Part shown: one piece after another, positions 38,985-42,009 of the stretch
How positions within the stretch are numbered: position 1 is the stretch's first letter
Layout: each line of letters begins with the position of its first letter
Assembly: GCA_016931575.1 (NCBI GenBank)
Contig: JAFGEO010000088.1
Span: 1-64,000, forward strand
Length of the DNA: 64,000 nucleotides
Source: Bacteroidales bacterium
GTDB lineage: Bacteria > Bacteroidota > Bacteroidia > Bacteroidales > UBA10428
Direction of reading: 5' to 3'
The notes under the pieces: generated by a model
The model's database searches: none
Told to the model about the DNA's origin: nothing
The model's input: only the letters and a program-made list of their open reading frames with translations
Program-made: the position numbers and the translations under genes

Positions 38985-39644
38985 CTACTCATGATGATGC
39001 CCGTGCCCGTGATGCGAATGATCCATATCCAGCAGGGCCCTCCCTGAATCTTTCAGCAATCCGATCGACCACCTGATGATCACAAAGGAGCTGATGATGG
39101 CTGCGATGGGGTCAATGAACGGGATATCCCAGATCATAGCTGCCGTTAGTCCCAGTATCGCAGATACACTGGTGAGCGCATCGGCAATCACATGCAGGTA
39201 GGCTGCCCGGATATTATGATCGGAATGTTCATGATCGTGGTGCAGCAGAAAGGCACTGGCGATGTTCACTGCCAGGCCAATGAAGGCTACCAGAATGGCT
39301 TCCCGGTAGACAATATCTACGGGATTATAGAAGCGTTCTACAGCCTCGATCATGATCACCACCGCAAAGATCAGCAGCATCAGCCCGCTGCTGTAGCCCG
39401 AAAGCGAGAGGATCTTCCCGGAATTACCCTTAAATTTTTCGCTCCCGGAAACCCTTCTGACCATGATGTATGCTATCCAGCTCAAACCGATAGCCAGCAC
39501 GTGCGAACCCATGTGAATGCCGTCGGCAAGCAGGGCCATCGATTTTGTCGTTAAGCCAAAAATGATCTCCACCACCATGGTTACGGCAGTCAGCAGGACC
39601 ACCCACATGGTTCTTCTCTCGTGTGTATTGCTCTTTTCTGTCAT
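38985..39644 (-). CDS. Cation diffusion facilitator (CDF) transporter, short form with His-rich tail
   Basis: A six-helix heavy-metal efflux protein of 219 residues. Metal-site residues are visible in MALLADGIHMGSHVLAIG (helix II) and AAYLHVIADALTSVSAI (helix V). A loop with HHDHEHSDH between helices IV and V probably collects the metal. CDF proteins normally have a cytoplasmic C-terminal domain of about 80-100 residues used for dimerisation; here the protein ends right after helix VI with DMDHSHHGHGHHHE. The wording is near the DmeF-type group (Co/Ni/Zn). It may be a natural short form. Confidence 0.85.
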   Translation of the reverse strand: MTEKSNTHERRTMWVVLLTAVTMVVEIIFGLTTKSMALLADGIHMGSHVLAIGLSWIAYIMVRRVSGSEKFKGNSGKILSLSGYSSGLMLLIFAVVIMIEAVERFYNPVDIVYREAILVAFIGLAVNIASAFLLHHDHEHSDHNIRAAYLHVIADALTSVSAILGLTAAMIWDIPFIDPIAAIISSFVIIRWSIGLLKDSGRALLDMDHSHHGHGHHHE

Positions 39645-39764: not shown

Positions 39765-40682
39765 TTATCCCTCCAGCAGACTGATCCTCTTCAGGTCCGC
39801 ATTCCCGTTTTTCAGAAAGGCCAGGGTTAGTTTATCCGCTCTGCAATCTATGAACTGCACACGCTTCAGTTTTTTGTTGTTTTTAAAGAATGTGTTGAGC
39901 AGCGTGGCGTTCACGAATTTCGTCCTGCTAAATGCGCAGTTTTCAAAAGAGCACTCCTCAAGGGTGCCGCCAAAAACGATGTTGTCAATATGTGAAGAAA
40001 TAAACGAGCTGCGGTTCCAGATCGAATTTTCAAGGCTGTTGCTCCCGAAAGCAGCCGACCTGAAAGACACCCCGGAAAAGTCGGCACCAGAGAAATCGCA
40101 GCCTTCAACATTGCTTCCTGAAAATGCTGCTTCCCTTAGTGAGCAGCTAATAAACTGATTTTTGGATAAATTGGAATGCTGTATGTTGCTGCCGCTGATG
40201 TCGGAGCCGGAAAAGTCACATTTTTCAACATTATTCCTTTTCAGAAGAAGTCCGGACAGTTCGGAACCAACAAACCGGCAACGCTGCATGTTGGATGAAC
40301 TGAATTTTTCATGCAGGTTTTTCAGACCTGAGAAGTCGGCGTCAACCCAATTCCCTCCGGACATATCCCAGACAGGTTTTTTCTCCGGCTTTCCGGACTG
40401 TGTTTCTTCACCTGGTCCGGGCACCGACTCCGCCGGAGCTACCGGATTGTCCCCGGTACCGTCGGTAAGGGATGGAAAACTTTCCGAGAAATAGTTTAGG
40501 TCTACCCCCAGGATCTCAGCCATGCGATTAAATGTAATTATATCGGGCATCGACTCACCACGTTCCCACTTTCCAACGGCCTGCGGACTAATAAACAATT
40601 GCCCGGCAAGCTGTGATTGGGATAGGTTCACTTTTTTTCGTGCATGGGCGATTCTATCACCCAGTATTGCTGTTGTTAACAT
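39765..40682 (-). CDS. XRE-type HTH regulator fused to a pentapeptide-repeat domain
   Basis: A 305-residue protein. The N-terminal 65 residues are a Cro/CI-type helix-turn-helix (LSQSQLAGQLFISPQAVGKW). After a proline-rich linker (about 80-105) comes a long right-handed quadrilateral helix of pentapeptide repeats (about 110-290; e.g. CDFSGSDISGSNIQHSNLSK). The pentapeptide part may be a protein-binding or DNA-mimic surface. The ATG at 40682 was chosen because it starts just before the HTH; a -7 box and three operator-like repeats lie upstream at the right distances. It could regulate itself through those repeats. Its target genes are unknown. Confidence 0.85.
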   Translation of the reverse strand: MLTTAILGDRIAHARKKVNLSQSQLAGQLFISPQAVGKWERGESMPDIITFNRMAEILGVDLNYFSESFPSLTDGTGDNPVAPAESVPGPGEETQSGKPEKKPVWDMSGGNWVDADFSGLKNLHEKFSSSNMQRCRFVGSELSGLLLKRNNVEKCDFSGSDISGSNIQHSNLSKNQFISCSLREAAFSGSNVEGCDFSGADFSGVSFRSAAFGSNSLENSIWNRSSFISSHIDNIVFGGTLEECSFENCAFSRTKFVNATLLNTFFKNNKKLKRVQFIDCRADKLTLAFLKNGNADLKRISLLEG

Positions 40683-40730
40683 ATTCGTATTTTTTATTGA
40701 TTCATACTCATTTTTACTTTGTCGACGATA

Positions 40731-40768
40731 CAAAGATACCTGGAATTATTCTGCAGATACTCAAAAAA
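40731..40768 (-). promoter_or_regulatory. Promoter of the XRE-pentapeptide gene (-33 and -7 boxes)
   Basis: On the minus strand, TATCTTTG (40738-40731) fits TAnnTTTG exactly, and a TTG lies 23 bases upstream (40764-40762). The leader to the ATG at 40682 is about 40 bases. Confidence 0.6.
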
Positions 40769-40773
40769 CAAAC

Positions 40774-40828
40774 ACTATTAGTTGTAATGCCTCTACTAAT
40801 AGTTGTATAGCTGCAACTATGAGTTGTA
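40774..40828. promoter_or_regulatory. Three 13-bp operator-like repeats at exact 21-bp spacing
   Basis: ACTATTAGTTGTA (40774), ACTAATAGTTGTA (40795) and ACTATGAGTTGTA (40816) start exactly 21 bases apart, two turns of B-DNA, so they face the same side of the helix. Each starts with the dyad ACTA-N-TAGT (one mismatch in the third). They lie directly upstream of the -33 box of the XRE-pentapeptide gene, so a protein bound there could contact RNA polymerase. The adjacent XRE protein is the obvious candidate ligand. Confidence 0.7.
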
Positions 40829-41124
40829 AATGACGATTTGTCATGGAAACTCAGCTATTTTTTTGATAAGCAGTTTTGCGGATTGTTGTTCCACTTGTGC
40901 CCGGATCCCGGCAGTTTGCCCCTTCTGGCATCAGCAAACTCGTTTTGACAGTAGAGATTGGAAAAGAAAAGCAGGGCAAGATACCAAAAACAGATTAGCA
41001 GGTTGTTGAGCTTGGATCAGGGTTATGAAAAAGAAGGTCAGAATTATTAATTTATCAGGGGTATGGTACTGCATATTAAATCTATAATTCTTAATTTTAT
41101 AATGACTCAAAAAATAATTGGTAC

Positions 41125-42009
41125 ATGGGAAAACAAAAAACGGATATATTGATACCTGTTGATTTTAAGATATATTGTTTAAAATCTATTGATTACGCAA
41201 AGAAATTACAGGCTGTTCTTAAAGGGAAAATACATCTGTTACATGTCGTTGAATCTCAATCATGGTGGGATGGTTTTTTTAATATGGATGATCTTATCCG
41301 GGGGGCAAATGAGAAATTGACTTTATTAAAAAAGGAGCAGGAGTTACCTGAGGATACGGAATTAAAGGTAATAACCGGGAAACGGGCTGTTGAAATTTCA
41401 AAGTATGCTATGGCGATCTCTGCCCGATATATTATTATGTCGGATAATTATCCTTTAACAAAAAACACAAAAGTACTTGGTTCCACAATTTCCGGAGTAA
41501 TCATGAGAGCCGAACAGCCTGTGATTAGCATAACAGAGAAAGAAGATTCTATTTTTAAGAATCTGGCTGTTCCGCTGGATTTAAACCAATCCTGCCGGTT
41601 ACAGCTTTACAATTCTGTTGCAATTGCCTTAACATTCCATGCGAAAATACATCTTATCTCGGTTCTCTTCAGCGAAGAGAAAGCCAAATCCAGCAGGATC
41701 CATGAGAAGATTGAAAAATATAAGAAAACTTACGATGATAACGGTATCCCCTATACAATTCAATTACTGGTAAAAGAGGAACCTCTGGCATATAAGGAAA
41801 TTATCAAATATTGTAATCCGGATAATGTTGATTCCGTTTTAATAATGACTCATAAGGAATCTTCCAAATTTGATAATTACCTGGGTGCTTTTGCTCAACA
41901 CATCATTAATGAAGTGACCATGCCGGTTGTGTCTATCAACAACGCTTCTGCTCATTTCTGGGAAAAAGAATTAGGGAAACCTACTGATCCTTTGGGATTC
42001 CTGAAATAA
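41125..42009 (+). CDS. Tandem universal stress protein (UspA-like)
   Basis: A 294-residue cytoplasmic protein with two Usp domains (about 1-140 and 145-285), starting KTDILIPVDFKIYCLKSIDY and, for the second, FKNLAVPLDLNQSCRLQLYN. The ATP-binding G-x2-G-x9-G(S/T) signature is only partly visible (GSTISGVIMRAEQPVISI in domain 1), so nucleotide binding is uncertain. The family responds to starvation and stress. Base use here is A+T-rich like the two lipoprotein genes that follow. Confidence 0.85.
   Translation: MGKQKTDILIPVDFKIYCLKSIDYAKKLQAVLKGKIHLLHVVESQSWWDGFFNMDDLIRGANEKLTLLKKEQELPEDTELKVITGKRAVEISKYAMAISARYIIMSDNYPLTKNTKVLGSTISGVIMRAEQPVISITEKEDSIFKNLAVPLDLNQSCRLQLYNSVAIALTFHAKIHLISVLFSEEKAKSSRIHEKIEKYKKTYDDNGIPYTIQLLVKEEPLAYKEIIKYCNPDNVDSVLIMTHKESSKFDNYLGAFAQHIINEVTMPVVSINNASAHFWEKELGKPTDPLGFLK

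Follow-up and report, generated by a model that had tools for sequence, protein, structure and literature searches.

Controller (C) proteins of restriction-modification systems are small stand-alone helix-turn-helix (HTH) proteins of about 80 residues and, to our knowledge, carry no pentapeptide rod. Most XRE proteins are repressors, and phage-type XRE repressors act at several operators in one control region, where the operators overlap the promoter; we know of no rod in P22 c2 or ImmR. Pentapeptide rods are known mainly as gyrase protectors, and no HTH head is known to us in QnrB1, AlbG, McbG or MfpA. As described in two reports, C proteins recognize pseudo-dyads with GACT arms and a short spacer, arranged as adjacent cooperative dimer sites before their own gene, and C.PvuII is an autogenous activator and repressor (PMC3758141, PMC3695507). 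In a further report, the microcin B17 operon encodes a pentapeptide immunity protein together with export machinery (PMC10886550). A search of titles and abstract openings, with most subscription journals outside its reach, returned no study that we recognized as dealing with an XRE-pentapeptide regulator or its operator.

The gene analyzed here encodes an XRE head joined to a pentapeptide rod (XRE-PRP) and lies in a 64-kb stretch of DNA (the window). A rod fused to a DNA-binding head, with a putative operator readable in sequence, offers a direct handle on what rods do or sense. The features of the locus are as follows.

39765..40682, minus strand: XRE-PRP gene, 305 amino acids plus stop, ATG at 40682 (translation, Pfam, AlphaFold2)
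40721..40726, minus strand: GTCGAC, predicted +1 to +6, a conserved initial transcribed sequence
40731..40738, minus strand: -7 box, TATCTTTG, 35 nt after the AGT of site 3
40770..40786, minus strand: putative operator site 3, promoter-proximal, TACAACTAATAGTGTTT, centre at about -52, conserved in alignment A1 and by model R1
40791..40807, minus strand: putative operator site 2, TACAACTATTAGTAGAG, centre at about -73 (alignment A1, model R1)
40812..40828, minus strand: putative operator site 1, distal, TACAACTCATAGTTGCA, centre at about -94 (alignment A1, model R1)
40771..40832, minus strand: whole array as matched by R1, 45.4 bits and E 5.1e-13 in the window, which is itself among the 60 sequences of R1

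The three 13-bp repeats reported in the first-pass annotation upstream of the HTH-pentapeptide gene, ACTATTAGTTGTA, ACTAATAGTTGTA and ACTATGAGTTGTA, start at 40774, 40795 and 40816 on the plus strand, each exactly 21 bp from the next, and they are genuine and beyond chance. The ACTANNAGTTGTA pattern has three matches in the window, all at the array, compared with a mean of 0.01 and a maximum of 1 in 100 shuffles, none of which contained three. With a paired pattern of two copies at 21 bp, the array is the sole match in the 4.8-Mb draft genome. The repeats are dyadic as claimed, but ACTA-N-TAGT describes them less well than a 17-bp imperfect dyad, TACAACT-N3-AGTTGTA, of which each of the three copies in the window is degenerate in its own way.

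The same annotation had read the gene as encoding an HTH protein with a long pentapeptide-repeat domain, and both Pfam and a predicted model agree. HTH_3 (PF01381) matches residues 12-65 with 47.9 bits (cutoff 23), which identifies the head as XRE-type, and Pentapeptide_4 reaches 70.1 bits (cutoff 38), with pentapeptide-repeat models spanning about 130 to 212 and beyond. The layout consists of the HTH (ca. 2-65), a disordered linker (ca. 69-100) and a right-handed beta-helix (ca. 111-302), the AlphaFold2 model having a mean pLDDT of 85.8 and a pTM of 0.65. The predicted rod resembles solved pentapeptide proteins (Z of about 20-24 over 172-201 residues) and has the form of a right-handed square beta-helix. 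HetL, AlbG, QnrB1 and MfpA (Z 20-23) appear behind and among designed solenoids in the fold search, while the head retrieves ImmR, C.AhdI, C.BclI and P22 c2 (Z of about 12).

XRE-PRP is thereby set beside the known systems on both of its halves. Its head is predicted to share the fold of the C proteins C.Esp1396I, C.PvuII and C.AhdI, and the modeled head superposes on C.AhdI (1y7y) with Z 12.4 and an rmsd of 1.1 over 66 residues. Like the sites of C proteins, the XRE-PRP sites are adjacent and precede the protein's own gene; they are also phased. There are three of them with an AACT-N3-AGTT core, whereas C-protein promoters typically have two sites (PMC3695507). At 305 amino acids, with a rod of about 200 residues, XRE-PRP lies outside the size range of C proteins, and no restriction-modification gene (methyltransferase, endonuclease) was found among the three window neighbors scanned; the neighbors of relatives were clustered and sampled. 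By analogy, XRE-PRP would work like C proteins but is not one of them. The rod model shares its beta-helix fold with the gyrase-protecting proteins AlbG (Z 20.7), QnrB1 (Z 20.3) and MfpA (Z 20.2), and in the NCBIfam curated families the protein scores far short of the cut-offs, with 42.6 bits against 240 for Qnr and 27.7 against 360 for MfpA. The head is similar to P22 c2 in sequence and, as modeled, to ImmR (Z 12.6) and P22 c2 (Z 11.8) in fold. In contrast to phage-type repressors, the full-length protein has no phage counterpart among the 60 phage records matching at E 1e-5, of which 0 cover 80% of the query (43% among the 20 matches listed). 12 viral contigs match within the HTH only, and PADLOC likewise matched P0001 only through its HTH, mostly with RmrA models.

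To follow the array beyond the window, we used relatives of the XRE-PRP gene, namely the best 80 of 308 from a contig scan, 49-65% identical over the best segment. By name these are mostly Bacteroidota, with six Firmicutes (L049, L052, L058, L075, L080, L081) and one Glaciecola (L037); Chitinophaga pinensis is among the carriers of the gene (L082). R1 is a sequence-only model made from 60 sequences (the window and 59 of the 80 loci), leaving 21 loci held out. Run on all 80 loci (502 kb), it detects the array ahead of the gene without exception (80/80), the 21 held-out loci included, with 22.4-66.5 bits; all remaining matches in the list but one, at 9.7 bits, are these dyads read on the opposite strand. 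In a leave-one-out matrix test with the window included, the top-scoring place was correct in 81/81 and exceeded all 1620 shuffles in 80/81, the exception being L076, where an additional base separates sites 2 and 3. The 80 loci hold 79 distinct arrays (L080 equals L081), and a few pairs are more than 90% alike, so that counts given here are of loci and not of independent events. The arms of sites 2 and 3 have mean pairwise identities of 0.86, 0.80, 0.87 and 0.82, compared with 0.62 and 0.55 for centers and linker and 0.27, near background, for the distal flank. Aligning the regions upstream of orthologues, the check suggested in the first-pass annotation, thus found repeats and period kept at every one of the 80 loci and lacking before none.

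The rod diverges faster than the head. The recognition helix S-x-QAVGKWERGES-x-PD is present in 78/80 relatives, and mean identity to the window protein across the 80 is 0.75 for the head and 0.62 for the rod. Four members (L136, L138, L154, L186) retain the array with heads 0.67-0.76 identical and rods only 0.25-0.34 identical. The other four of eight divergent members have heads of 0.58-0.75 and rods of 0.41-0.49, and all eight lie behind an array; these eight loci were found via the array and therefore give no estimate of how often members without an array occur. As read from these sequences, array and head travel together while the rod changes. The rod had been proposed to organize several DNA-bound heads, and with identities of 25-34% in the four array-keeping members any such role cannot rest on detailed rod sequence. 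We do not favor DNA mimicry by the rod because it is near neutral, with a computed net charge of +2 in the window and -5 to +7 in eight relatives, none of these being strongly acidic.

The array is held at a fixed position relative to the core promoter. Scored with unconstrained spacing, site 2 and site 3 are 21 bp apart in 75/81 loci, and L076 alone does not fit a gapless anchor at 21. Between sites 1 and 2 the distance is 21 bp in 52/81, 20 in 19, 22 in 6, 24 in 3 and 19 in 1, the rarest values resting on weak sites; free spacing scores give 21/21 in 49/81 and odd values (18, 22, 24) in 6. Taking the first T of the TAHHTTTG -7 consensus as -12 (PMC6847099), the start of transcription is predicted at about 40726 in the window. 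Of the -33/-7 boxes assigned in the first-pass annotation, the -7 box was found and the '-33' box is weak, since TTTG is absent at the usual 19-21 nt from the -7 box and the nearest lies at 23 nt. Of 74 loci scored, among them the window, 33 have 35 nt and 40 have 36 nt separating the -7 box from the AGT of site 3. The remaining locus, L096, was read as 57 from an anchor one repeat out of register and gives 36 nt after correction. L107 has no -7 box by pattern. At the predicted +1, [AG]TC[AG]A is found in 49/74 loci by a positional pattern and in 35/74 by a stricter one.

The six Firmicutes-labeled loci carry a different core promoter behind the same array. Their -35 box begins 13 nt after the AGT of site 3 and reads TTGAAA in five (by script) and TTGAGA in L058 (by eye). 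A TATAAT-like sigma-70-type -10 box follows 17 nt after the -35 box, at 36 nt, in L049, L052, L058 and L075, and the identical pair L080/L081 has a poor -10 box, CAAAAT. These loci are unlikely to be misplaced Bacteroidota contigs because their neighboring ORFs carry Shine-Dalgarno-like sites (12/22, versus 13/298 in the other 74 loci). That one putative operator keeps its distance to two such different sigma-factor promoters amounts to a natural experiment in regulation, and comparing the two promoters would test how XRE proteins talk to polymerase. By eye, GTCGAC or GTAGAC stands at the same offset in the six Firmicutes-labeled loci, so that both promoter types have this sequence or a near form of it at the predicted +1.

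Array and gene also occur together across genomes. Among 395 genomes across the phylum, full-length XRE-PRP was found in 8 and a strong array (E <1e-8) in the same 8, including the window's own. Three genomes with rod-only matches (G115, G146, G373) lack the array at E 0.001, and two weak array matches of about 21 bits occur without the gene; in this panel the array search ran with stricter filters. At E <1e-4, the array search of the window's own genome plus 60 relatives hit only XRE-PRP loci or L116 in G006. Searching 60 relatives, 393 genomes from the order and 395 from the class added further array places. Altogether 55 array loci were examined, the window's own included, 46 with an XRE-PRP match and 9 without; L151/L173 and L169/L172 are double hits of one place each. 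Among the 74 loci with an upstream ORF (the window counted), the first such ORF runs in the direction of the gene in 51 and against it in 23, its distance varies widely, and none of the upstream families in the 12 largest clusters is first neighbor at more than two loci. As direction, distance and family of the upstream ORF all vary, the array is not that of a divergent gene.

The array loci without a complete XRE-PRP gene are of several kinds. The 9 without a match are L116, L142, L164, L169, L172 and the weak arrays (20.9-25.6 bits) at L140, L141, L170 and L188; L114, where the contig ends inside the XRE-PRP gene, and L183, L168 and L171 count among the 46. L164 in G471, a genome 98% complete, is an orphan array of 48.4 bits with no XRE-PRP match anywhere in the genome and with neither a gene start nor the usual promoter in the 215 bases left before the contig end. 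The array at L183 (G1094) precedes a broken gene of which only the first 29 residues are present, the genome containing no other copy. The G471 and G1094 arrays are best read as remnants, and both cases weaken a strict one-to-one rule of array and gene. At L116 (G006, 81% complete) the array is followed by a hydrolase gene and, 16 bases later, by the contig end, and XRE-PRP was not found in that genome. At L142 (G164) an array stands before a 305-residue protein, followed by a second array and XRE-PRP. Judging from these loci, the array usually marks an operon holding XRE-PRP. Two observations are added here. In G164 a duplication covers the array together with its upstream flank, and the 305-residue protein (L142:534-1448, minus strand, array at ca. 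1501-1552) has no Pfam, NCBIfam or PADLOC match. At L169/L172 (G730), positions 1480-1800 contain tandem 21-bp units (TACAACTATCATTTG...) with 13 ACAACYATCAT cores, about 0.6 kb upstream of a lipoprotein-like gene, a run whose likeness to the array half-site may or may not be due to chance.

In part of the family, XRE-PRP is followed by an exporter, a point of likeness to the microcin B17 operon. An exporter ATPase gene comes after XRE-PRP in 15/80 loci, 3-19 nt behind it where read as an ORF, a count that includes L054 (split) and L109 (deletion). A permease is present in 15 loci, and L155, outside the 80, also encodes the ATPase. The downstream 1 kb of L036 and that of L038 each match 22 other loci at the DNA level. 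In NCBIfam the L038 pair scores best with daunorubicin-resistance DrrA, at 288 bits against a cut-off of 312, and with the DrrB family, at 62 bits against 147; as both scores lie below the cut-offs, DrrAB-like is a name by resemblance. Compared with L038 (Parapedobacter), 11 loci under names that include Syntrophomonas, Chitinophaga and Glaciecola have ATPases 79-88% and rods 61-80% identical. Transfer of XRE-PRP and exporter as a unit is the simplest reading of such identities across these names. In L168 and L171 an alpha/beta-hydrolase gene lies between array and XRE-PRP in the same direction, its product 44-45% identical to the L116 hydrolase; it is a possible detoxifying partner.

Self-regulation is the natural reading of the array because it is conserved, fixed relative to the core promoter and co-occurring with the gene. 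We put a probability of roughly 0.8 on the three dyads being an autoregulatory XRE-PRP operator filled by dimers of XRE heads, probably cooperatively and in touch with polymerase. Dimers of the N-terminal heads would bind the three 17-bp dyads, whose centers, 21 bp apart in the window, lie on one helix face, and would sit side by side upstream of the core promoter. Contact with RNA polymerase is probable because the 35-36 nt to the -7/-10 element are held while the intervening sequence varies. How strongly the XRE-PRP operon is expressed would be set by the array, and in some members that operon includes the DrrAB-like exporter or the alpha/beta-hydrolase. A sensor or effector function probably falls to the rod. 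The self-regulating switch proposed in the first-pass annotation is thus borne out in the operator-like behavior of the array (conservation in 80/80, fixed promoter distance, 8-and-8 co-occurrence), while its other half, binding by the protein, we infer, along with dimers, cooperativity, direction, signal and the role of the rod.

Given that the array is an operator, there is about an even chance that autoregulation is positive or dual (activation, then restraint), since the fixed distance points to polymerase contact. Plain autorepression, to which the good core promoters point, is a serious possibility on the same condition, and any other mode of control is improbable. As a branch of the autoregulatory-operator reading that differs in direction, the plain autorepressor would have three dimers cover the region upstream of the -33/-35 box or trap polymerase until a signal sensed by the rod lifts them, and, taken as a whole, we hold it tentatively. 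It draws on the prevalence of repressors among XRE proteins and on near-consensus cores, with a TAHHTTTG-type -7 box in most of the 74 loci and TTGAAA-N17-TATAAT-like promoters in 4/6 Firmicutes-labeled loci. The near-consensus core promoters of several loci fit repression as well as activation. Sites lying wholly upstream of the -33/-35 box at an exact distance tell against the plain autorepressor, being more typical of polymerase-touching proteins. The position of site 3 overlaps that used by the C-terminal domain of the polymerase alpha subunit, which could mean help or hindrance.

Other explanations would detach the array from the XRE-PRP protein. That it belongs to another, host-wide regulator controlling the XRE-PRP gene is improbable: the identity of the binder is read from sequence and some arrays stand without the gene (G471 and, in its present assembly, G006), but matches in the window's own genome and 60 relatives are confined to XRE-PRP loci or L116, gene and array coincide in 8 and 8 of 395 genomes and stay together under Firmicutes and Glaciecola names, and the rod-only genomes G115, G146 and G373 have no array in that panel. 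An attachment or recombination site carrying exchangeable genes, in the manner of an integron, would account for the other genes behind the array in L116, L142, L168 and L171 and for the duplication of array plus flank in G164; upstream text shared by a few loci had also suggested it. This is very unlikely in view of XRE-PRP following the hydrolase in the same direction in L168 and L171 and of a 1-kb flank comparison in which the upstream matches were all short (six loci around L038, and L043 matching both L104 and the downstream flank of its own locus) and the downstream ones were the exporter genes. The flank comparison and an inverted-repeat search of three stretches yielded no recurrent cassette end, and we dropped the integron reading with the L168/L171 hydrolase taken as an operon member. 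The faintest chance is left to the array being an RNA element within a leader whose transcription begins further upstream, for instance an AGTTGTT-AAAT-AACAACT hairpin. By eye, alignment A1 would allow same-strand pairing between site 1 (right arm) and site 2 (left arm) in many loci, yet a conserved promoter lies downstream of the array at a fixed distance and in the window no Rfam family but a tRNA reached threshold.

Extending the autoregulatory-operator reading, XRE-PRP could be a mobile one-protein switch, an idea that we regard as speculative and, in its entirety, rather unlikely. The rod would sense a toxic compound or its target, the heads, filling all three dyads of the array, would contact polymerase in a fixed phase, and export and detoxifying genes would be gained or lost by the operon as it moves. 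The switch would cross phyla with its operator, the core promoter being rewritten for a new sigma factor. A plasmid search at E 1e-10 gave no match. Beside the G006 array, L116:1076-1215 is a G+C-rich stretch with ends inverted by eye that loosely recalls an integron attC; this pair of ends is absent from the output of the inverted-repeat search. The three window neighbors scanned with Pfam are a cation-efflux gene, a universal stress protein gene and a DUF3124 gene. The universal stress protein gene (41125-42009, plus strand) is upstream and divergent, and the cation-efflux gene (38985-39644, minus strand) lies 120 nt downstream on the same strand as XRE-PRP, where it might be read through, outside the exporter pattern of the relatives.
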